Positions 7,651-61,626 of a stretch of 64,000 bases of DNA are shown piece by piece; the first letter of the stretch is position 1, and each line of letters starts with the position of its first letter. The stretch comes from Sugiyamaella lignohabitans (lineage: Eukaryota; Ascomycota; Dipodascomycetes; Dipodascales; Trichomonascaceae). Location: the NCBI RefSeq assembly GCF_001640025.1, contig NC_031672.1:1736001-1800000 (forward strand), given 5' to 3'. A program made the translations under genes and the position numbers. Under the pieces are notes generated by a model. The model did no database searches, was not told the origin of the DNA, and worked only from the letters and a program-made list of their open reading frames with translations.

Positions 7651-10600
7651 ATGGCCGGTGCTACAGCTCCCAAGCAGGACTTGGACTCTCCTGCCAATGG
7701 CTCGTCAGATGCAGCTGCTGTAAATAATCCAGTTACAAGCACGAGTTCAAGTGCGAAAAAGAAGAAGAATAAAAAGAAAAAGAAGAAGTCTGCTTCGGCT
7801 GCTGTGGTTACTGACAATGCCAGTGTAGCTCCAGATGTGGAAAAGATTGAAGAAGATGGTGAAATTGCTGATTCGACAGCTGTGAGTAGTCCAGTGGATG
7901 TGCTAGCCTCTGGATCAGAGACGAAGGAATTAGCTGATACAGTGGCTATAGCAGTTGGACCGGAATATGCTGGGGAGCCAGAACTAGTATCACAAGAAGA
8001 GCTAGCAGCTGAAGCCGAGCCACCTGCGGAGACGATAGCTGAGCCAATTAAAGAGGTAGTTAAAGAACCAGTTGCTGAGCCTGTCGCTGAACCTGCTGTT
8101 AAGCCAGTTGAGGAGACAATTGCTGAGCCAGTTGCTGAGCCAGTTGCTGAGCCAGTTGCTGAACCAGTTGTAGCTGAACCAGTCGCTGAACCAGTTGCTG
8201 AACCAGCTGTTGAACCAGTTGTAGCTGAACCAGTTGCTGAACCACTTGTTGAACCAGTCGCTGAACCAGTTGTAGCTGAACCAGTTGCTGAACCACTTGT
8301 TGAACCACTTGTTGAACCAGTTGCTGAACCAGTTGATGAACCAGTTGCTGAGCCTGTCACTGAACCTGCTGTTAAGTTAGTTAAGGAGACAATTGCTGAA
8401 CCAGTTGTTGAATCAATTGAGGAACCAGTTGCTGAACACGTTGAAGAGCCAGTCTCTGAGCCAGCTACTGAACTGATTGAAGAACCAGTTGCTGAATTAG
8501 CTGAGAAGCCAACTACTGAGCCTGTTGCTGAACCGGTTGAAGAGCCAGTTACAGAGTCAGGTTCAAAGTCAGTTGCTGAACCATTTACTGAACCAGTTAC
8601 TGAACCAGTTACTGAATCTGTAACTGAACCTGTGGTCGCGAATACAGAAGATAAGTTATCGACTGCAGAAGCTGGTAGTGAAAATGATCGGGATTTGACA
8701 ATCTCTATTCATATTCAAGAGAGTGTGGAGGCCCCGACTGCTGCATATGAGATAGAGTCATCTAATGACGTAAATTTCGTCCAAACAAATTCTGATCAAC
8801 AAATTTTTGACGACTTGACTAAACCACAGCCTTCAGAAACAGATAACTTTTTTGATGATAAAAAGGATGATGTCCAAGAAACTAATTTCTTTGCAGAGTC
8901 GGATAAAAAAGACAATGAGCCAAACAACTTTTTTGATGAGATAGAGAAAAACGGACAACAAGAGGCCAACGCCAACAATATTTTCTCTCAAACTGCCACA
9001 GAAGGAAGCGCATCTGGTGCTGATTTTTTCTCTCAACCTGCTGTCAATTCAAAAGAGCAGCCCGAAGAGCACGACTTTTTCTCTCAGTCTGCAGTCAGTT
9101 CTAATGAACAGCCCCAAGGAGACGGCTTTTTCTCGCAACCTGCCGTCAGTTCCAATGAGCAACCCCAAGATAAGGATCTTTTCTCTCAATCAGCTGCCAA
9201 TTCTAAGGAACGACCCCAAGAAACTGACTTTTTCTCTCAAATAAGTGCGGCAAAGGGCCCATCAACCGACTCAATTGAGAATGATACCGTATCTTTGCTC
9301 CCTAGCAAGAAAAAATCCAAGCTTCATGAACACAAAAGAGACATATCTGTATTTGCTGTTGCTGACAATGACCCGTTTTTCAGTACTTTGGGCTCAACAA
9401 AGGAAGAAGGTCCTTCTGAATTCCCAGAGGAAGCTCTGCAACCACCTCAAAAAAACCTGGATAGATCGCAACCTTCTCCGTCGAGTCAGGTTGTGGAAAG
9501 CCCTGATCTAGATCGTAATCCTTTTGAGGATAATGAAACTAACCCGTTTTCCAATGACACTGCAGAAACAAATCCTTTTGGACACGAATCCGCCGATGAG
9601 AACCCATTTGGTAGTGGTGAAGCTGATGATAGTTTATTTGTTCGCCTTGCTGAACATGCAGACCCTAGTGATACGATAGCTCCTGCATCGACCCAATTAA
9701 AGTCTGATAATAGCTCTATACCTGCTACCACAGCCACTGCCCCTACTGTTGGTACTACAGCTGTTACCAGCACATTATCATCTCTTGCATTCCTTGAAGA
9801 AGACGACGATTTACTTTCTGATGAGGACGATGCTCCCCTCGCTATAGACGCTTCTCAGTCCCAAAAAATCAAAAGTCAGCCTTCTGCTACACCCGTGACT
9901 ACATCTGCTCCATTTACAACTCCCTACACGGCACCTGCTACTACAAGTACGAGTCCCTATAACTCATACTCTATTTACCAGCAGCCACCACAAGAGGAGA
10001 GACCGAAGTACACGTCTCGTTCGTCAACAGCAAATGCATTTGATTTACCAACAGGCATTATGCCCAAGCATCATGTACGACCATCTCCTTCGTATCAGAA
10101 TATGGTATCTGCCCCTGGGGTTGGAGGTTATACCCCCCGACAACCGTCTGTTTACGGAACTCCCGAACAACCTCCGACTCAAAAAACTGTTGCACCCAAA
10201 AAATCATTCTTCGAAGAACTGCCAGTTGTTCATCGTAAGCCAATGTCTCGAAAGACAAGTCAAACCTATGAACACGCATCAATTGGCGTTCCTCCACATA
10301 TTCAGCATCAACAGATTGGCAGTCAATTTGGACCTCCATTGTCAAATCAAAATTCTACTTTGCCATATTCCCCTACGATATCTGCTGCTGGACCACCTCC
10401 CATTCGTTCTCCCAGTCAAGCCCCAGCTTCTTTAGCACATAATCCTTATGCTCCATCTCCCAACTCTGGGCCACAATTGGTTGGTCAAGCTCAGAGCCAA
10501 TATCATCGGTCGTCTTCTCCCTATACACCAATTCAACATGCCATTCCTCCTTCTCATCAGCGTGGTGCAATTCCGGCAGCTAACCAATACCCCCAAGTGG

Positions 10601-13600
10601 GTCCTGTTGTTCCTGGTGTGCCACCACCTGGTGTTCCACAGGCTTCTAACGTTGCTGTTCCTGGTGTCTTGGCTCCTCATAACCAATATACCGCCCCAAC
10701 AATGGCAGGTGGAAACGCATTCTCACCACCACCACCAGTACCACCAGCTTCGATTTCCAGACCTTCATCAATTCCCAATCCGTATGCTCCAGGTGTGGTT
10801 CCTCAAAGCAAGTCAGTGTACTCCCATTCTCGTACCAATTCTGCTGGTTCTAATCACAGTGCCACTGCTGGTCTCGCAATTCCATCTGGCGGGTATGATG
10901 ATTCTGCTTACAAATCCGCTTATAGTCCTAAAACTGGTCCGACAAACACTCCGCCAAATCCATATGCCAATGTCCCAGTTGCCGCTCCCCCATCTGGTTA
11001 TACGTCTATGGCCAATCAGTATGACCCTCATAATACTGCTGCTGCCAATGCTGTTGCTGCTGCTGTGGCCCATAAAAGTACTGCTCCACCTCCAACTTCT
11101 ACATATGGAGACCTACCTCCTATGTTAGAGACCAGCAGATCGAGACAGGCATCTCATCCTCAGATGGCTCCTCCGTCTGTTAGTTACAGGTCTTCACCTG
11201 CCAACCAACCAGCATCGCTTAACCTTAAGTCAGCTGCTGCTGCGGCCGCTGCCGCTGCTGTCACTACTGGATCAATACATGATTTCCATCAGTCACGACC
11301 TGCTAGTGTCCCTATTGATAATGAGGCCCTTCAGAAGAGACAGTTTCCTATATTCCATTTCGGTAATGGAAGGCAAATCGTGTCTGGACTACCTCCTGCC
11401 ATTGCATTCGGTAATACTCACATGGAGATCAAAATCCTCAGTACTAAGAGCGTTATCAAGACCGACTACGAGTTGAATGCTAAGTTCCCCAGCCCATTGG
11501 TAAATAGCAAAAGTGCTATCAAAGGCAAGAAAAAAGAGCTCGAGAAATGGTGTGATGAAAAGATTGCTAAGCTTGAAAACGAATTCAAAAACAGCAACGT
11601 TAATGCTAACCCCAAGTCAATTGAACGTGCTAGTCATCGCATTCTACTGTGGAAGTTTTTGGCCATACTGCTTAAGGCTGATACACATCTTTCACGTGCA
11701 CCTCCAGAGGTTCTTCAATCTATTAAAGAGCTGCTTAATCCACGACTTGCTCTTGTAAAGAATGAGAATGTCACAACATTTTCATCTGCCTCTGATTTGT
11801 ATAAAAAAGGTTTACACCGACGAAACTCCAGTACTGACTACCAGATGGGAATGGTTCCATTCAGTTCAGAGGATCTACGCAATATCTTCACTGCTCTTGA
11901 AATTGGCAACCGTGCTGGGGCACTCCGAATTGCTCTCGACAAGCATCTCTGGGGACATGCTCTCTTGATTGCTAGCTCGCTTGGTCCTCAGCAGTGGAAC
12001 GACGCTGTGGCTGAATTTGTTCGCGAAGAAGTGCGTTCTCATCCATCGTCCAACTCGCAGAGCCTCGCTCTCATCTATCGAGTTCTTGCTGGTTCTGGTG
12101 CCGAGGCCATCTCCGAGCTACAACCGCGTTTACCACTTGCTAACATGCCTGCAAACCAGCGTCCAGAATCGCCTTCTGTCAACAACTGGCGCATGTACCT
12201 CTCTCTCATTGTGTCAAACAAGTCTCCTAACGACTCGGATGCCATCCTTGAGCTTGGAAAGCTCCTACGGAAAAATGGCTTGATCGAAGCTTCGCATATT
12301 TGGTAAGTCTGTTTTTTTTTTTGCCTCCGGAGGCTGGGGCTCCGCCCCAGGCCCCGTGGCTCCTCTCGCTCCGCTCGAGTCGTACTAACTTCAATAGCTT
12401 GATTTTATCTGGATATCCTGTTTTTGGTTCGCCCGACGAAGATGCTATTATTCTAATGGGCGATGATATCAGTGCTGACCGTGGTTTTGGTCGTGACCTG
12501 GATTCTATTCTTATGAGTGAGATGTATGAGTTTATTTTGATTTCTCATCCTCCTGAGGTCAAGAGTCTGAATCCGTTCTCGCATTTGTTACCGTACAAGT
12601 TACAGCATGCCTTTTCTCTGGCTGATTTCGGTTATACTACCGAGGTACAAAAATTACTGGAACCTATTAGCAAGGCCACTTGTAAGGAGATGCCTAAGTT
12701 TGGTGAAGTGCTGGACAGTTTGATGCACAGGGTATCTGCTCTGGATGGTGCCAGTAGTGGCAGTTCGGGTTGGTTCGGTGGAAAGCTTGCAAGACCCAAG
12801 TTTGACAAGATCATGATGCAGTCGTTCAACAAGTTTGTTGCTGGAGATGATGACACTCCCGTGAGCACAAACGAGACTGCTCAAGAAGGTGGTATTTTCA
12901 AGCGTTTGGCTAGTACTCCTGCAAATGTTACCAGTAGTGCACCTGGATCTAGTCTCGAGACAAGCCCTAATTACTTTAACCAGCAGCCATATGCTGCCAG
13001 TCAGCGCCAAGCTTCACAGCCTGCTATTCATCAACCAAATGAGTATGCTCCTATTCCAAGAACACATTCTCTGCAGTCAGTTGGTCCTAGTGGTAATGGC
13101 ACTATCTCAAATGAGTACTTGAACCGTGTTCAATCACACGCGAATGTTCCTTTGATGTCTTCGGCTTACGCTCCTCATGCTCCACATGCTCCTCTTGGAT
13201 CACAGGCTCCTCTTCAACCTTTGTTACCAGCCAATGGAGTCCACGACATTACATCCCGCTCAGCTGCCACATCGCCTAATTTCGGACTTCGTAAAGCATC
13301 TGCTGCTCTTAGTTCAGATACCTATGCTATAGATAGTCGACCTACCTCACCAGCAGCTGCTTCTGTTGGCACTGGCCCATATTCTCGTCGCTCGTCGAAT
13401 GCTGTATCTGATGAGCCAGTTAACAGCGTCTATGCTCCACCCTCAAGGACCGGTAGCAGCCAAAGTGCTCGTCCAGTTTCTCGTCCATTTACCCCTGAGG
13501 CTCCTGTATTACCACCACCAACTAAACCTGTTGATGCCTCACCCGTTTATAATAAGCGGGAAACTCCTCAAGTATCGCCCAAGTCTAATAAGACTCTGAA

Positions 13601-14846
13601 CTCGTCTCCATCCAAATCTGTTCATAACCCGTATGCTGTTCAACCAAGTTCAGGATCAAGTGGCTCTGTTTCAAATCCTTACAACCCATATGCTCCTCAG
13701 ACTAGCCAACCAAAACTAGCTATATCGAGAAAGCATGTTTCGTCGCCTTACGAAGCTCCTGCTAAGGCTATCGACTCCTTAGAAGAAAGCAAATCGGAAG
13801 AACAAGAAGAGCCTGTAGCTACTGCTTCATATGGTTACAACCCTTATGGAGCCATTTATGGTGGCGAAGATGTACCAGCCACCGCTGGGGTGGCACCTTC
13901 TGAACAAGAGGGTGATGCCAAAGATCAGACAGCTGATGAAGCAAGAGACGAGAGAGATGAAACCAGGAGAGAGGATGAGATTCTAGAAGAGGAAAATGGC
14001 CGGGAAGAAGATCTTTATTCCAGCTACGAGCCTCCAAGTTATGGGTTCCAAGCTGAGCCTATTGCCGAGGATAATTTTGTCGACCCAGAAGCTTCTGATA
14101 GCTATTATACACCAGCAGTAGCCGCTCCTGCATTCTCAGCTCCAACATTCAGTGCTCCTGGCACTTCGTATCGAGCACCACCAACAGCCATTCCCGAAGA
14201 AGATGAAGAAGACGAAGACCTCGGTTTTGCGAATGCAAAGAAAAAGTCAGAGTCGGAAGATTCTAAGGAGAAAGAAGATGAGAGAGATGAAGAGGACGAG
14301 AAATCAGATTCCAAGACAAAAGGAAAAGAAACTTCATCCGATGGTAAAAAGGGCTGGTTTAGTGGATGGTTCAAGAAAGGTGAGGATGATGGCCAACCAA
14401 AGGCAGTTCGAGCCAAGCTTGGCGAAGAGTCGTCGTTTTATTATGACCAAGAACTCAAGAGATGGGTTAATAAGAAAGCGCCTTTGGATAACGCAAAACC
14501 TGCTGCGCCAGCACCTCCACCAAAGTCATCCAAACCATCTGCTGCTTCAACACCGGGTATTCCTTCTCCTTCTACTGTAGCCACTCCAAGCCCTGTTGCT
14601 ACTCCTCCAATAGGTGGTGAAAGGGCGGCATCGGCACCAGTCAGAGCACCACCAGGAATGCCAGGTCCTAGCTCTTTATCAGGTGGTCCCTCGCTTTCAG
14701 CGTCGACTTCAAGCTCTGATCTCCGAAAGCCTTCTCCTTCCTCCGGAGGTGGTTTAGACGACCTCCTTGCCAGCGTTCCTACTACTCGTAAACCAGCAAA
14801 GAGAAGTGCTCGAAATCGTTATGTTGACATTATGGCTCAAAAGTAA
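7651..14846 (+). CDS. SEC16: COPII coat scaffold Sec16
   Basis: Join(7651..12302, 12398..14846), 2366 residues. Sec16 organises ER exit sites by binding Sec23/24, Sec13/31 and Sar1. The order matches the family: a Lys-rich N-terminus, Glu-Pro-Val-Ala repeats (about residues 130-330), four FFSQ-type repeats (about 458-530), NPF motifs (about 624-657), a long Pro/Ser/Tyr-rich region, the central conserved domain from FHFGNGRQIV (about 1232) across the exon junction at Cys1551 (HICLILSGYP), then a disordered acidic region and the conserved C-terminus ending RYVDIM. Removing the 95-nt intron restores frame exactly and rebuilds the conserved AHIC-like stretch, so this is one spliced gene and not a broken one. 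The start at 7651 is the first ATG after the putative UTR intron. Confidence 0.93.
8038..8640 (+). repeat. Coding (Ala)-Glu-Pro-Val repeats in SEC16
   Basis: About 200 residues built mainly of EPVAEPV-like units, encoded by variants of GAACCAGTTGCT. The repeat DNA also opens a Gly/Ser/Thr-rich frame on the other strand, which is a shadow. Confidence 0.9.
9024..9240 (+). repeat. Coding 17-residue repeats in SEC16
   Basis: Four units of DFFSQ-x-A-x-x-S-x-E-x-P-x type, period 17 residues (51 bp), followed by a partial fifth. Confidence 0.85.
12303..12397 (+). other. SEC16: SEC16 intron made almost wholly of a double-hairpin element
   Basis: 95 nt. Donor GTAAGT at 12303 plus a T-tract (19 nt), then the 61-nt element (12322-12382), then TACTAAC (12383-12389) and acceptor TTCAATAG. 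The element's last base touches the branch site. Translation across the junction gives conserved Sec16 sequence, so splicing is well supported. Confidence 0.93.
12322..12382 (+). repeat. Double-hairpin element inside SEC16 intron, tail type A
   Basis: Single sense copy, first loop TCC, tail loop TCC, with two head/linker differences from consensus (GGAGG in the head, CAGGCCCC in the linker). Confidence 0.95.
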
Positions 14847-33119: not shown

Positions 33120-34562
33120 TTATCTCTGCAGAAACAATTCGTAGGTTCCGAGAGACTCGATTCCTCGTGATCTTATTTTATCAGCTATGAGTCTCTTTTT
33201 AGTCGCTGGTAGTTCATGTTGAAGGTCATACAGAATGAACAAATTGAACAAGACAGCAGGGTCGACATTAGCAGTGGTCACTGTTTGTTCTAAAAGTTCA
33301 ATTGCTTTGACTAAATTGCCTTGATGAAGCTCGGAGATAGCCAAGTTATTGAGAGCTTGAGTCTTGGCATCATCTCCAGCTGATGGCTTACTCTGTTGTT
33401 CACTCTCGTTGTTTTCTGTGGATAAATATTTTTCTAGTAAACTAGCAGATTCTGACATATCGCCATCAGCTAATGAGCATACTGCCAGTGACAACTCTTT
33501 AGACTGTTCTACAGGAGCTAATTGAAACCACTCTCGTGCAGATATCGTGTCACCAATCATAAGGTACACAAACGCCAGAGCAATAGCTACTCGATGGCTG
33601 AAAGAAATATTAGCTTCACCCCCTGAACTCTTCAATGTGCTGTAAAAAGCCTTTAAATGATCAATCGCTGTTGCATTATCCTTCATTCCCACCAGTGTAG
33701 CTGCTACATATAACCCCAACTCTCTCAGTCGAGCCTCCCAAACCTCAACCGATTGGAACACAGTTCCCTCTGTCGTCTCTGGTTCACGATTCCTGGCTCT
33801 ATGTGCTTCAATTCTCGCTTCTCTGGCCAATCCATAATACCTTGTCAGTCCATTCTGAGTATCTCCTCCAGCCCAAATTGGTACTAGAAACAACCTAAAG
33901 TCCCATGGAACCACACTTGTGCCGTCCTCCAGTCTGTATTTATCTCCCGAAACATCGCCCAACGTCTTCGCTTCCACTCTAGCAATTCTACCCTGTCTTG
34001 CTGCAATCAAGCTCCTCATTCTTATAGCCCATAGTCTAAATATACTCTCATAATCACTCTTATCCTGAGTTGCGACCAGAATCTCCGCAGCCTTCCTAGC
34101 AGCCTGAACATAGTGCTTCTTCTCCAACAATTCACCGGGATCATACTTCGCGAGACTCGCGGAATCAACCGAAAACTCCACAGGAGTCTCCTACCAACTG
34201 TTAGTTACCAACTTCAACCCGGGTTGGGAACCTGCCTCCGGCGGCTGGGGCTCTGCCCCAGACCCCGTAGCTCCTCTCGCTTCGCTCGAGTCGTTCCTCC
34301 ACGGTCCCAGCCAACTCCTGAGAAGTAGGAGCAACGAGGTCTCGGGTGTAGACCCAGTCGTCGGAGGCAAAGACCACATAAAACCTACCTGATCCGGCAC
34401 CGGCTGGAAACACGCCGGGTCCGTCAATGAACTGAGGTCCAGTCCGCCGTCTTCTCTGTCAATTGTTAGAACCTCCAGTCGAATCAAGCCGTCAAGGGTC
34501 GACAAACTGGAAAACACACTTACAAACTCATTGTAATGGGGGGATATTGCTGAATCAAAAGT
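33120..34562 (-). CDS. TRAPPC12: TRAPPC12-like TPR protein, 5' end unresolved
   Basis: Complement(join(33120..34190, 34389..34562)) plus at least one unidentified upstream exon. The last exon encodes 356 residues with a domain resembling TRAPPC12 (GTSVVPWDFRLFLVPIWAGG, VWEARLRELGLYVAATLVGM) and TPR-like helices to the C-terminus. TRAPPC12 is a TRAPPIII subunit in animals and filamentous fungi acting in membrane traffic and is absent from S. cerevisiae. The exon 34389-34562 reads FSSLSTLDGLIRLEVLTIDR and on to FQPVPDQ, then joins in phase 0. It has no ATG but starts just after an acceptor-like TTTTAG. The identity rests on sequence resemblance from memory and is moderately sure. Confidence 0.6.
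34191..34388 (-). other. TRAPPC12: TRAPPC12-like intron with an inverted element pair
   Basis: 198 nt; donor GTAGGT, branch AACTAAC, acceptor TTGGTAG. The element head begins 19 nt after the donor. One half (34314-34369) is heavily mutated, the other (34233-34293) intact. Confidence 0.85.
34233..34369. repeat. Tail-to-tail pair of double-hairpin elements, one half degenerate
   Basis: Plus half 34233-34293 is type A with loop TCT. Minus half 34314-34369 is a decayed type-B copy: the first stem reads CTGGGTC/GACCCGA-like and the tail stem has mismatches. It gives a view of element decay. Confidence 0.85.
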
Positions 34563-38000: not shown

Positions 38001-41000
38001 GTGCTGATACTCTTGATTCTGGCATCGTTATCATCGTCTTCGTCATGTGCCTTTCGTACAGACACCTTTGAAGACAAGTCAGATAAGAAACCAGTAGGCG
38101 CCACAGGTCGAATCTCTTCTCCGTTGGGTTTTCCAACAACCACAAGTCGAGCTTTTTCAGTAACAGGTGTAAAATCAAAGCTATGTGGAGACGGATCAAT
38201 ATCACTGCTCTCGTGTTTGCTACTGGGTGAATCGCCAACATACTTCAGAACATCGTTGGATCGCAATTGTAAATCTTCCAATTGTTTCATACGAAGTCTT
38301 CGTTGTTCATGTAAATCTGCTAGGGTCGAGCCACCAATATTTTGTGTAAATTGGGCAAAATTCTTATCATTCACGCTAGGGTCTTCTTGGAAATCAAACT
38401 CCAACTCTCTGGCAGTCACCTGCAACGCTTCCATACGATCACGTAGTTCACGAAGTCTTGGACTGGGTTCAATTTCCCAAGCCTTTCCTTCTAATTTATA
38501 TTCAGTCTTTTTACGAGCAAGTTGTGCTTCCAACTTTCGTGCCAACTGGTCGCGATCAAGAATACCATGACCATGTTGTCCTTGTCCATTAGTCTGACCG
38601 CCATTAGCTGCTACACCAGGACTGTCAGTTACATTCTGATCAGTCTGGTTTCTACTCTGTTCCTTTAACATCAGGTACAACTCGCGAATTTCCAGCTCTT
38701 GGTTCTGTAAATCTACAACATGACTCTTTTTCAAATCATCCAGATCCTGTTGTAACCCTTCATTAATCCGTCGTTGCAACTTCAACATTTCAGCTTGTTC
38801 ATCCAGCTGCTGTTGCAACCTTCCTACAAGTCCATCAGCACCTAAATTAGCCAGTTGTTGTATTCTGTCTCTCTCAGCTTTAGCCTCTTCAGCTTCTTTC
38901 ATAGCCTCTTTTGCTTCAAGATATGCTCTTCTGGCTTGATCATCTGTCTGCATTCGACCGAGGATATGCTGGACCGAAAAATTCAGCATGTTTCTCAAAT
39001 CCACATCAGGAGAGATCCTATCCATAACCACATGTGACAGCAATCCATCCACCAATTGAAACATTCTGGCTCCTTCGTCAGTAGGGCTTTCTCGCACAAG
39101 CATGAAATGCTGCATTGCGCTGAGAAAGTACGCCTCGGCGTTTGTTCCCTTGACTCGAGACCAGATTTCTTTCGATATCTCTACTGGATCCTCCATATCC
39201 TTAACATCCTCTTCCCTCTCAATGCTCAATAAATCCTCATAATCCAGAGCAGACTGCTCGTCGTACTTGCGAATGAACTCGTCAATATTCTCATCGTGCA
39301 GTTCCTGTAGTTTTCTGGCGATTCTCGGTAACCCAGAAGCCTTTAATTGTGACCGGATATGAATTCGTACTCTTAAATCACTGGCTCCAGTGGCCAGTCC
39401 GTATACAAGCATTATAGTCGAGAGTCCATAATCCATGATCTGGCTCTCAATACCCATTCCTCCGCTGCGAAACTCCTCGCTTGCTCCTACCAACGAGCCC
39501 ATTTTGCCTCTTCCGTCTATAGTTTTCTCTACCACCTTCAACCACGTCTCGAACCGTCCAACATCGCCACGATGACCCTTCATCTGATCCAGCGCCGAAA
39601 TAACCGTATCATGGCCCGTAGAACCTTCATAGCTGTTAAAAAATATCAGCACATCCGTGACGAGTTTTCTAGTACTGAGTCGTGGCGAAATCAAACTATG
39701 AGCCAAAGTATTACAGAACCGGGTCGATCTGAGCGCTTCATTCGCACCATCCGCGAAGTTCACAAGCGCTTTCAAACATTTGATCAAATCAAACTCTCTA
39801 TCCAGTACATCCTCACTAAACGAGCCCGTATTCTGGTTGATACTGTACAACACCTGAGCCAGAGCCGCCTGGCCCTTTGCCGCGAGAAACTCCTGAACCC
39901 ATCCGATCTGCTCAGTTCGCAGTGACACCGTCAACGTCTCCAGCTCCTTGGCAGTGATCTCGTTCGAAATAATCCTCCTCACATACCACTCGGGCGTCCT
40001 AATCTCGGTCTTATTATGTATCAATTTCCTACCGCCCTTCCTCTTACTCATCTTCGCATTCGCCAGGCGGTCCTGCTCCAGCAACGTGCGCTGCTTCTCA
40101 ATGCCAAAAGTCATCATCTCCCTCCTCGCTGCCTCCGGCAGGCTCTTAAAATCACGTTTCTCCTGCTCCTGTTAGCTCACTTCTCCTGCGGGGGTCTGCC
40201 TCCGGCGGCTGGGGCTCCGCCCCAGACCCTGGTTGCTCCTCTCGCTGCGCTCGAGTCGTTCCGCGACGGTGCCACGGCCAATATCTCCTGCGAAGCAGGA
40301 GCAACCAGGGTCTGGGGCGGAGCCCCAGCCGCCGGAGGCACACGGGCCACTCCGAAAACGTACCATGAGTTCCATGAAGAGCCGGTGCACTTCGTCGTCG
40401 TCGAGGTGCTCGATATCGGTGGGGGTGCTGCTGCTGCCGATGGAGAACATGCTGGATTTGGTGGTGCGTGTCGAGCGGATGGACATGGTGTCGTCGTCGA
40501 TGGAGTAGACCGAACTGCGGGACACGTGTTTGGGCAGGTCGCGAAGTCCGCTGGGTGCTCGAGATCGTGCTGATGCCGCTGATGATGATGTTGGTGGAGG
40601 GTGAACATGCGATGGGGTCGTTGCGAGCGAGAATGACGAGTTGCTCGATAGAACGGGTGATAATTGGTAGATCGAGCTGCTGCTTGATTGTAGGTTGACT
40701 GTCGACGAATCGGATACATTGCCGTTGATATATGGGCTCGAACGAGGTGGAGCCATGCTGTGATGTTGTTGTGAGGGTCCAGTTGACGACGAACTGGTGA
40801 TGCTGGGAGCTATAGTCGAAGTTGTGCTGGCATGGCTGTGAATTCTATGTAACGGCAGAGGTGGAATGGGGCCACTGATGATTGTTGTAGGCACAAACGA
40901 AGCATTACTCGAGTCGCTGGCGCCGCTGGCGGACCGTCGCGAGTCGTTGTTCGACGGCAGGTACGTCACTGGGATAGGCGATTTCGATTTCGTGGTCAGC

Positions 41001-41287
41001 GAATCGTATGGAATCGACGAGATCACTGAACTGTTGGTAGTTGTAGGTTGTAAATGATGCATTCCACCTGGAGTCGCGGTACTCGAAGTGCCGGTGCTCG
41101 AAGTACTGCTATTACTCGAGCTACTGAGCTGTGACGGCCGATGTTCCTTATGATTACTACCCGACGACGAGCTCTTGGTCAAATATTTCAGCGACGCGGC
41201 CGCCATTTTACTGGCGGCCCCAACAGCCCCACCAGAGCCGCCATCTTCCGAGCCCAGCGACTGCTGTGAAGGCCGACGTCCGACCAT
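35012..41287 (-). CDS. BNI1: Formin (Bni1/SepA type)
   Basis: Complement(join(35012..40168, 40364..41287)), 2026 residues. Formins nucleate and elongate unbranched actin cables at sites of polarity and cytokinesis. Residues 1-300 are Ser-rich; the GTPase-binding/FH3 region begins near the exon junction (HRLFMELM joined to EQEKRDFKSLPEAARREM); coiled-coil stretches follow (about 690-860); FH1 has six or more polyproline tracts (about 1085-1230); FH2 follows (KQMHWEKIDKV, GNYMNDHSKQASGFKLGTLQ), then a DAD-like MDSLLEKLKAAG and an acidic Ser-rich tail. Both exons are whole codons long and splice in phase 0. The ATG at 41287 lies four bases inside the exon after a putative leader intron. It is probably activated by Rho GTPases, as in relatives. 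Confidence 0.93.
40169..40363 (-). other. BNI1: BNI1 coding intron with an inverted element pair
   Basis: 195 nt; donor GTACGT, branch/acceptor GCTAACAG. Splicing joins the conserved formin segment ELM|EQEKRDFKSLPEAARR. Two double-hairpin elements fill most of it; the first head starts 23 nt after the donor. Confidence 0.9.
40197..40340. repeat. Tail-to-tail pair of double-hairpin elements in BNI1 intron
   Basis: Plus half 40197-40258 (type A, loop TCC, 62 nt with linker ACCCTGGTTG); minus half 40285-40340 (type B, loop TCC). The spacer is 26 nt. Confidence 0.95.
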
Positions 41288-41290
41288 ATC

Positions 41291-41500
41291 CTGCTCCCGA
41301 TGTTAGTTGTGTGGTCCTGGGGGGTCGGCGTGTGCCTCCGGCGGCTGGGGCGCTGCCCCAGACCCCGTGGCTCCTGCTTCGCAGGAGATTTCTAGGGGGG
41401 GAGCCTCGACGCTCGACTCGAGCGAAGCGAGAGGAGCTACCAGGGTCTGGGGCGGAGCCCCAGCCGCCGGAGGCAGGCCCCCTCCCCCTGAGAAACTTAC
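41291..41500 (-). other. BNI1: Probable BNI1 5'UTR intron with an inverted element pair
   Basis: 210 nt; donor GTAAGT at 41500, branch AACTAAC, acceptor GGGAGCAG. The element head begins 25 nt after the donor. The upstream 51-nt exon has an in-frame TGA, so the intron is placed in the leader. Confidence 0.75.
41333..41475. repeat. Tail-to-tail pair of double-hairpin elements in BNI1 leader
   Basis: Plus half 41333-41387 (type B, loop GCT); minus half 41414-41475 (type A, loop TCC). Spacer GATTTCTAGGGGG and following bases closely match the pair at 43043-43183. Confidence 0.95.
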
Positions 41501-41551
41501 CACAAGTGCTGGTTCGGCAAGCGGGTCGTGTGTGTGTGTAGTGGTTCAGAA

Positions 41552-41621
41552 CTGAGAGTTGTTAGCACTGGAGAAATCAAAACCCGACACCAGAGAGAAA
41601 TGGTGGTGAAGAAATACGTAC
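41552..41621 (-). other. BNI1: Possible second BNI1 5'UTR intron
   Basis: 70 nt; donor GTACGT at 41621, branch TGCTAAC, acceptor ACTCTCAG. It lies 51 nt upstream of the element-bearing leader intron. No element inside. Confidence 0.55.
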
Positions 41622-44879: not shown

Positions 44880-46648
44880 CTATTTGGTCATGGGTTCAAA
44901 CGGTTTCTGGCGCTTGCGTTCGTTCCAGTGGAGCGTGTTGCTGAGTCGTTCGAACCACGAGGTGTTAGACCGGCCGTTGGTGACTTTGGGGAACGGGTAG
45001 CGAGATGCCGTTATGGTCAGGAAATCGCCCTTCTGGAGCTCGACTCGACTTTTACCATCAAAACTACACCAGGCCGACGACCGCGCGTCATACGGCACTC
45101 CTACTCGAATAATAAGCGAGTCTGGAAGCACAATTGGTCGGAATGATAGAGTATGTGGACAAATAGGCGAGATCAGAATGGCGGGAATATCGGGGTGAAC
45201 AAGTGATCCACCGGCAGACAACGAGTATGCAGTCGAACCGCTGGGGGTTGAAATAACCACACCATCAGCTTCCATGGAAGTGAGAAACTTGAAATCTCCA
45301 TACAGTTCAGTAGTAGTGATAGTGGGGTTTGGACCTCTGTCAACAACCACATCGTTCAAAATGCAAAACGACTCTGCTATTTTATGAGTTCGGAAAATAC
45401 CGCCACTCAGTGCGCCAGCCTCGATCTCCTTCTGTAAATCGTTGTATCCTTTCTTGACTTTACCATCGTCATACGACCGGAACACTGTACACGAGAATCT
45501 CATCCGCAAAGCACACGAAATACCGTTATCCAGGACATCTTTAATGACGTCTTTGCGATCTTCATAGCTGTATTCCGTCATGAATCCCAGGCTTCCAAGA
45601 CCGATACTGAGCACCGGCGGCACGATATTCTGGAACAGCCAACTTGTAAAAAGAACGGTACCGTCACCACCCAAAGTGATAACGAAATCAAACAGATTGG
45701 GGTTCTTAAAACACATATCCTGAGTCCAGAACGACAATCGTTTCAACCCCGGATGGCCCGATAATACCAGCTCTTTGTAGTCGAATTCCGGGTGATCGCG
45801 CAACACGTCCTGAACGGAAATGTTCAACGGCCCGTGCACCGTCTCCAGCGTCAGTAGCCACAGCGCCAGCTCCCGAGTAATCGGGACCAGCGACGAGTCC
45901 ATGATCTTGCTCACAATCAGAATATTCCTCATATTCAGTTTCATCGAGATATTACCTATCACGTTAGCACTTCTGGGGGGAAACAGATGCCTCCGGCGGC
46001 TGGGGCTCCGCCCCAGACCCTGGTTGCTCCTCTCGCTCCGCTCGAGTCGTTATGGGGGGATGGTGCCTCCGGCGGCTGGGGCGCTGCCCCAGACCCTGTA
46101 GCTCCTGCTTCGCAGGAGTTCTGTCACCATCGAAGCAACGACTCGAGCGCAGCGAGAGGAGCAACCAGGGTCTGGGGCGGAGCCCCAGCCGCCGGAGGCA
46201 TGTCCGTCAGCCACTTACTCAGGTTGTTAGAAAGGTCCCGCACCGACACAACCATTTCCGAGATAGCGTCTTTGCTGAGGATCTGGACCATGGGCTCACG
46301 GGGAGTTACTGGGGAATAGAGGGATCCGGAGGGAGCGCTTTCGGGGAGGTGGTCGTCTTCGTCGTCTTCGGTGTTTAGATTCAGGTTGTCCAGATTGAGC
46401 GAGTTGTGGACCATGCAAATCGAGCTTCGTTTGGGCATCACCGATGGCCCGTGGAACATGCTGTCTTTGGCAAGCGAGTCCGGCAGACCCTTGCGGATGA
46501 TATCGCTCAATTTGGCCGCCGATGACACTCGATGTGGGTTCGCTGTGGGCGATTTAATGGGAATAGGAACCACTCGCGCTTGTGAGGGAAGTGGTCCATG
46601 TGCATCTTGGCCTCCTCGTAGCCCATTTTTATCTGGTGGATATGACAT
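44880..46648 (-). CDS. UTR1: NAD kinase (Utr1/Yef1 family)
   Basis: Complement(join(44880..45955, 46219..46648)), 501 residues. It phosphorylates NAD(H) to NADP(H) with ATP. The N-terminal 140 residues are variable with an acidic patch; the conserved SVRDLSNNLS|NISMKLNMRN segment is rebuilt by splicing (Ser codon A|GT). The catalytic domain has GGDGT (about residue 240), NDVVVDRGPNP and TPSGSTAYSLSAGGS (about 383), all family hallmarks. The start is the ATG at 46648; an upstream frame extension lacks another ATG. The absence of a mitochondrial-looking leader favours the cytosolic Utr1 type over Pos5. Confidence 0.93.
45956..46218 (-). other. UTR1: NAD kinase intron with three elements
   Basis: 263 nt; donor GTAAGT, branch GCTAAC, acceptor GTGATAG. 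The first element head begins 18 nt after the donor. Three double-hairpin elements make up about two thirds of the intron. Confidence 0.93.
45988..46200. repeat. Cluster of three double-hairpin elements in NAD kinase intron
   Basis: Plus copies 45988-46049 (type A, loop TCC) and 46064-46118 (type B, loop GCT); minus copy 46139-46200 (type A, loop TCC). The last two form the usual tail-to-tail pair, and the first is an extra copy. Confidence 0.95.
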
Positions 46649-50097: not shown

Positions 50098-50217
50098 GAT
50101 TCTACTTGAAATAATTGTAAAATCAATCAGAAAACTAGCCTTTAGTCGGTCTTTAACGATTCTACTTCAAATAATTGTAAAATCAATCAGAAAATTAGCG
50201 CTTAGTCTGTCCTTAAC
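50098..50217. repeat. 60-bp tandem duplication
   Basis: Two units starting GATTCTACTT at 50098 and 50158, differing at about eight positions, just upstream of the hypothetical membrane protein. Confidence 0.9.
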
Positions 50218-61346: not shown

Positions 61347-61407
61347 GCCTCCGGCAGCTGGGGCTCCGCCCCAGACCCTGGTTGCTCCTCTCGCTCCGCT
61401 GGAGTCG
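61347..61407 (+). repeat. Double-hairpin element, tail type A
   Basis: Full copy, head GCCTCCGGCAG, first loop TCC, one tail change (CTGGAG). Its flanks resemble those of the copy at 61160 (CCCCTGAGCACGG before, GTTTCGTCGGCGGTCC after), suggesting a local duplication of about 190 bp. Confidence 0.93.
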
Positions 61408-61564
61408 TTTCGTCGGCGGTCCAAGCCGTCTTTGGCGAGATTGGTGACGCACTTCCGGGTCAGCATGCGCCTGTTCCCTGACGCAACTTCGTTTCGTGAG
61501 CCGCCAATCGACAAACAGGACACCCCACTTACCACCCATTCCCATCCTGGCACCCCCGACGAAA

Positions 61565-61626
61565 CGACTCGAGCGAAGCGAGAGGAGCAACCAGGGTCTG
61601 GGGCGGAGCCCCAGCCGCCGGAGGCA
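61565..61626 (-). repeat. Double-hairpin element, tail type A
   Basis: Full 62-nt copy, first loop TCC, 123 nt before the MRPL10 ATG. Confidence 0.95.

Follow-up and report, generated by a model that had tools for sequence, protein, structure and literature searches.

The window, which is the whole stretch of 64,000 nt analysed here, carries a SEC16 gene on the forward strand, divided into two exons. Exon 1 (7651–12302, +) extends from the first ATG of its frame to the splice donor and ends with bases 1 and 2 of a Cys codon, while exon 2 (12398–14846, +) is defined by an open frame and by the Pfam match of the spliced peptide. Positions 8002–8638 of exon 1 consist of tandem 12-base units, which encode a repeated four-residue motif. 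Between the exons lies a phase 2 intron of 95 nt (12303–12397, +) that splits the Cys codon as TG^C, and unspliced reading leads to a stop at the donor. Predicted splicing joins open frames of 1,559–1,560 codons upstream and 815 codons downstream in an ORF-joining scan, resulting in a protein of 2,366 amino acids with the junction at residue 1551. When 250 residues of spliced peptide round the junction were compared with Pfam, a single match was obtained, to TPR_Sec16, with 179 bits over residues 2–250 and the junction at approximately residue 101. The original prediction, that exon joining restores conserved Sec16 sequence in frame, is borne out by this match through the junction.

The intron can be read directly as three parts: 19 nt comprising GTAAGTCTG and a T-tract, a repeat of 61 nt, and the 15 nt TACTAACTTCAATAG. 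The 5′ splice site GTAAGT is followed by CTG and the T-tract (together 12303–12321, +), and this segment is assigned to the outside of the repeat from the sequence and because the outer flanks of other copies are, on average, G-rich. The repeat copy (12322–12382, +), TGCCTCCGGAGGC...CTCGAGTCG, is by family alignments one half of a foldback unit in forward orientation; its 5′ limit is uncertain by 1 nt, as the first T is indistinguishable from the T-tract. This is immediately followed by the branch site TACTAAC (12383–12389, +), which begins at the base after the repeat ends, and by the 3′ splice site TTCAATAG (12390–12397, +). Both the layout and the contact between element and branch site had been predicted, and they hold to the base. 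The repeat accounts for 64% of the intron and leaves 34 nt of other sequence. Donor, branch site and acceptor are all canonical, and direct reading of 12322–12382 reveals no splice signals within the repeat copy itself. A strong local fold of the half-unit was rejected, with z-scores relative to shuffled sequence of −1.5 for the intron and −1.1 for the repeat alone.

A repeat that touches the branch site, as in SEC16, is unusual. In a count that covers the exact sequence, CTCGAGTCG lies 0–3 nt from TACTAAC at two places in 15.9 Mb, SEC16 and L067, and no repeat is present at L067.

The family to which the SEC16 copy belongs was characterized in a 144-kb sample, comprising the 64-kb window and a further 80 kb (L058–L065). 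Here, 78 halves were found: 20 close inverted pairs, which span 136–205 nt with a median of approximately 140 nt and give the terminal inverted repeats of a foldback element, and 38 halves that have no close partner. The inverted arms, TGCCTCCGGCGG...CCGCCGGAGGCA, are up to 98% complementary. The conserved sequence ends at TGCC, beyond which approximately 14 nt of flank are loosely G-rich. In the genome (15.93 Mb on 4 contigs), the exact 19-mer TGCCTCCGGCGGCTGGGGC is present 5,342 times, and extrapolation from 78 halves in 144 kb suggests roughly 8,600 halves genome-wide. Among the matches listed, the best other genome copies are 92–97% identical to the SEC16 copy over approximately 60 nt. Inverted arms lie close together or in series at 61347–61625 and 40190–41482, where they are potential cruciforms; separately, 50098–50217 is a 60-base tandem duplication with two copies that are 90% identical.

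Target-site duplication was sought immediately at the arm ends in 63 full units, where direct repeats of 2–6 nt were about as frequent as in shuffled pairs. The possibility that the branch site is part of the repeat was rejected, as just 9 of 77 halves have GTTAG within their outer 40 nt (2.0 expected); five of these nine sit in introns or intron candidates. No Rfam family reached its gathering score within the 64-kb window, and an exact 34-base pattern of the element with one free base had no match in prokaryote or viral contig collections. Among the open PMC papers listed, judged by titles and the beginnings of abstracts, none ties the repeat to Sugiyamaella or its family, and none combines "Sugiyamaella" and "miniature inverted".

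The foldback repeat occupies many other introns of the genome besides that of SEC16. With overlapping readings of one place included, chance gauged by reversed patterns and members taken as putative introns, GTAAGT precedes TGCCTCCGG by 0–30 nt 219 times and by 31–61 nt 38 times, with the reversed pattern at 0 in both searches; CCGGAGGC has CTAAC in the next 25 nt and a YAG close by 345 times, versus 3 times for the reversed pattern; and the inner end of the half, CTCGAGTCG, is followed by CTAAC and YAG 19 times versus 2 reversed. The repeat is present in 7 of 13 curated CDS introns in the 144 kb, where 0.76–0.95 events would be expected in native intron sequence. The Poisson probability of seven is 1.5e-5 when 50% of the DNA is assumed to be non-coding (0.76 expected) and 6e-5 when 40% is assumed (0.95 expected), making the density of repeat events in native intron sequence seven- to ninefold that of other non-coding DNA. 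The 13 introns were curated from ORF-joining scans, and weaker or overlapping candidates were dropped, including at least three that bear the repeat (one starting near 976, 41291–41621, and one at 115347 on the minus strand) and repeat-free ones of 472, 409, 190, 102, 90 and 58 nt. Many copies lie outside CDS introns, with 12 of the 78 halves inside curated ones.

Three further repeat-bearing CDS introns of the window are on the reverse strand. The first (40163–40363, −) contains a full foldback unit and joins frames of 313 and 1,716 codons in a large gene, presumably a formin; the second (34191–34388, −) also contains a full unit and joins 58 and 356 codons; and the third (45956–46218, −) contains a full unit plus an extra half and joins 165 and 357 codons. 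Pfam domains run across the junction in 10 of 10 spliced repeat-bearing genes, SEC16 included, these ten having been chosen from 31 spliced peptides.

Repeat-bearing introns are also distinguished by how little other sequence they retain. Within the 144 kb, non-repeat sequence amounts to 34–92 nt in seven repeat introns versus 59–246 nt in six repeat-free introns. At the loci, the values are 44–61 nt for 13 full-unit introns and 62–367 nt for seven repeat-free ones, where the repeat set contains no half-unit introns, introns above 300 nt or introns whose donor is further than 40 nt from the repeat, and the repeat-free set no donors other than GTAAG. The difference has a one-sided Mann–Whitney P of 5e-6 when pooled and 0.011 in the 144 kb alone; the locus set is biased towards short values because the search pattern limits the 3′ distance, whereas the 144-kb set was not so chosen. 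Most full-unit introns from one of the ORF-joining scans have the repeat start 11–26 nt past the donor and the repeat end 7–29 nt before CTAAC. One of them, 40163–40363 (−), was folded and gave a long predicted hairpin (−149 kcal/mol, z-score −12.3), one arm of which has 47 paired bases in a row. Many introns of this kind would be a source of double-stranded RNA.

Whether the SEC16 intron is younger or older than its repeat can be judged from relatives. A search with exon 1 returned 30 proteins, of which 27 can be aligned across the junction; seven of these have NCBI records and may reflect spliced annotation, and the other 20 come from lgn, jgi or ena only. The homologues that score best, P0001 and P0002, are among the 20 and are uninterrupted at the site. 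P0007 behaves differently: its unspliced frame stops exactly at the junction with ...EAAHTWYV, and the last codons, TGG TAY GTN, fit a TG^GTAYGT donor at the same position and phase as the SEC16 intron. Exon 2 as the query returned seven proteins, which include the window itself (P0031), two that start downstream of the site (P0034 and P0035) and two that run through it uninterrupted (P0036 and P0037). The remaining two, P0032 (...RELTS|FVLS) and P0033 (...YNALTS|FILS), read at the site in a manner consistent with CTAACNAG^Y in the same phase, where LTS fits CTA ACN AGY, that is, the branch sequence CTAAC, a single base, AG and then the base that completes the Cys codon. The codons of P0007, P0032 and P0033 are read back from the protein letters, and judged by these protein ends the relatives would appear to possess an orthologous SEC16 intron. 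P0007 and P0032 may be from one species.

That such proteins can be unspliced frames follows from P0033 (jgi), which begins inside an intron, and from P0008 (lgn) and P0011 (ena), whose ends coincide with a donor; the remaining proteins from lgn, jgi and ena are assumed to be such frames. P0008 and P0011 end earlier, at ...DSGK, which points to a GTAAG donor elsewhere in SEC16, after ...GAG(A/Y)DS. As this site differs from that of the window's intron, the group seems to show turnover in where SEC16 introns lie. The intron sequence visible before the junction is 65 nt in P0032 and 47 nt in P0033, and no recognisable repeat is present in it, with scores of 25 and 13, respectively, versus 103 for the window's own intron. 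Against translations of the repeat, 14 of 100 shuffles scored as well for P0032 and 100 of 100 for P0033. This comparison covers the visible 65 and 47 nt, and a repeat may lie further upstream; the window's own repeat spans 16–76 nt upstream of exon 2.

Other genes present both kinds of history. The half-unit intron of L045, which we take to be a monocarboxylate-transporter-like gene, is identical in position and phase to a repeat-free intron of approximately 207 nt in its paralogue L070 (39% identical), whereas by our reading the intron of the paralogue L069 is offset by 2 nt, and the paralogues L071 and L072 lack one. The intron that L045 and L070 have in common suggests that the takeover of an old intron is seen here again. 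L055 (1–3045; C1 near 877.45–877.63 kb) and L068 are presumably JEN-like transporters. The former has a 183-nt intron with a full-unit repeat, at a site that is uninterrupted in all 120 homologues listed, the best 120 of 7,082 (56 from lgn, jgi or ena only); split homologues would rank lower and could therefore be missed among them. On a 29-row tree, L055 sits among uninterrupted relatives, and an intron of 69 nt, free of the repeat, lies in the paralogue L068 at a distance of 19 nt from the L055 intron position. L055 is thus the best candidate for an intron gained together with the repeat. The idea that this intron was copied whole from elsewhere was discarded, since a 26-base piece of its 3′ flank is unique in the genome with 3 mismatches allowed. 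The repeat intron of L049, assumed to be an SDR-like (short-chain dehydrogenase) gene, is missing from four of four other matching genome places (32–49% identical), and that of L053, in our estimation an RTA1-like gene, from the sole other match spanning the site (28% identical). With introns that lack a counterpart in their matches, L055, L049 and L053 favour intron gain elsewhere with this family.

Several explanations for the SEC16 intron have to be weighed. The original prediction had offered two: that the element generated the intron, or that it replaced nearly all of an existing one. According to the first, a repeat copy landed in a SEC16 exon that had been continuous until then, and the inserted DNA became the intron, as with an introner. 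In its favour, the intron is 64% repeat with 34 nt left, the best-scoring homologues P0001 and P0002 are uninterrupted, and in L055 a full-unit intron sits at a site uninterrupted in the 120 homologues listed. It is nevertheless very unlikely at SEC16, where the repeat holds no splice site, the visible introns of P0032 and P0033 contain no recognisable repeat and an intron of the same position and phase is indicated in P0007, P0032 and P0033. An orthologous intron in relatives had been named in advance as the finding that would speak against creation by the element, and it is this that was found, as far as protein ends show. The absence of target-site duplication at the arm ends of the 63 full units also weighs against this origin. 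A variant, where the repeat landed in an exon and nearby signals were recruited, is likewise unlikely for SEC16 and may apply to L055. The second alternative, near-total replacement of an older intron, fits best, with 34 nt remaining.

The same-site introns could also have arisen separately, with the repeat here and without it in the lineages of P0007 and P0032/P0033. Intron-bearing rows are scattered over separate groups on both SEC16 trees, so that one has to assume repeated loss or else parallel gain, and a bare count of steps favours two separate gains over one gain plus several losses. Losses are preferred because position is identical and phase is 2 each time, and because intron loss reportedly far outnumbers gain in Saccharomycetaceae (PMC5499181); parallel gain is considered unlikely. 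Finally, the repeat might sit in SEC16 without being spliced out, mark a lesion of the gene or stem from misassembly. This is extremely improbable given the canonical donor, branch site and acceptor, the restored frame, the uninterrupted Sec16 domain and the Pfam domains that span all ten junctions examined.

The SEC16 intron is therefore most probably an old spliceosomal intron of the lineage, which the 61-nt half-unit entered later and from which most of the original body was lost. As an intron at the same place is indicated in relatives, takeover by the repeat is a better account than the making of a new intron, although the 20 uninterrupted homologues from lgn, jgi or ena only, and the failure of the intron-bearing rows to form one group, count against it. 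Here, a GC-rich half-unit would have come to lie between the donor and the branch site of the existing intron, and most of the body would have been lost with or after its arrival, leaving 19 nt on the 5′ side and 15 nt on the 3′ side. All splice signals would come from the old intron, with the repeat contributing only length between donor and branch point. The 34-nt remainder is below the shortest repeat-free intron candidate, of 58 nt, so simple insertion is insufficient and a loss step must be assumed.

More generally, the repeat most likely inserts into existing introns, downstream of the donor and upstream of the branch site, a place in which it would be tolerated. As it supplies spacing, deletions could afterwards strip the native body down to the signals, to below the minimum length of repeat-free introns, and this would also account for the short remainders seen across the family. 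SEC16 would be the extreme of such shrinkage, with the repeat touching TACTAAC, and in full-unit introns the hairpin would draw donor and branch site together. The order of insertion followed by shrinkage, and any effect on splicing, are what we infer. It is possible, and is put forward tentatively, that the family both takes over old introns (SEC16 and L045) and has given rise to some new ones from full units (L055). This would amount to an introner-like burst in which a self-folding repeat serves as spacer and splice signals come from short flanks or host sequence.

The significance of these observations lies in part in where they were made. Budding yeasts are known for intron loss (PMC5499181). 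In an introner survey, Pezizomycotina is the fungal group named among the first eight groups that bear introners, and the survey's main text does not contain the word Saccharomycotina (PMC9860276). Here, a GC-rich repeat is found in approximately half of the curated CDS introns of 144 kb, at distances from donor and branch site that vary little. For S. lignohabitans itself, PMC5499181 gives 5% of genes as split. This figure may be too low, since 13 curated CDS introns in 144 kb look like more than 5% split genes, and repeat introns may be unannotated. In addition, introns filled with nearly identical copies mean that repeat entry, shrinkage and perhaps intron creation can be studied.

The family can be compared with several known systems. 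Introners, or introner-like elements, are the subject of the survey, which cites van der Burgt 2012. They resemble the present family in that one repeated sequence is common to many introns of one genome (here, 219 versus 38 donor pairs and 7 of 13 introns), in the inverted-repeat ends of some introner families, which are matched by the inverted arms here, and in that one gene, L055, has a repeat intron missing from the homologues listed (PMC9860276). Unlike introners, the family has its splice signals outside the repeat and not in common between copies; the repeat boundaries are not the intron ends, with 44–61 nt outside the unit in the 13 full-unit introns, and many copies lie outside CDS introns. 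Moreover, the introns of SEC16 and L045 are apparently not new at their positions and older than the repeat, given the same-site introns in SEC16 relatives and the intron shared with L070, and target-site duplications were not found at arm ends.

MITEs or foldback elements are a class of non-autonomous elements, and the family is like them in being short, with no evident coding capacity, inverted arms and thousands of near-identical copies. It differs in the lack of target-site duplication at arm ends and in that about half of its halves (38 of 78 in 144 kb) have no close partner. Organelle genomes of yeasts and algae contain GC clusters and palindromic repeats, which by description are likewise GC-rich palindromes that spread through a genome (PMC4478555, PMC7235400). 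The present repeat, in contrast, is found on chromosome-sized contigs with nuclear genes and is concentrated in spliceosomal introns. Finally, ordinary yeast spliceosomal introns follow the consensus GTAAGT, TACTAAC and YAG. The introns described here share all of these splicing signals and differ in the body, which is mostly repeat, and in a remainder that is shorter than repeat-free introns.
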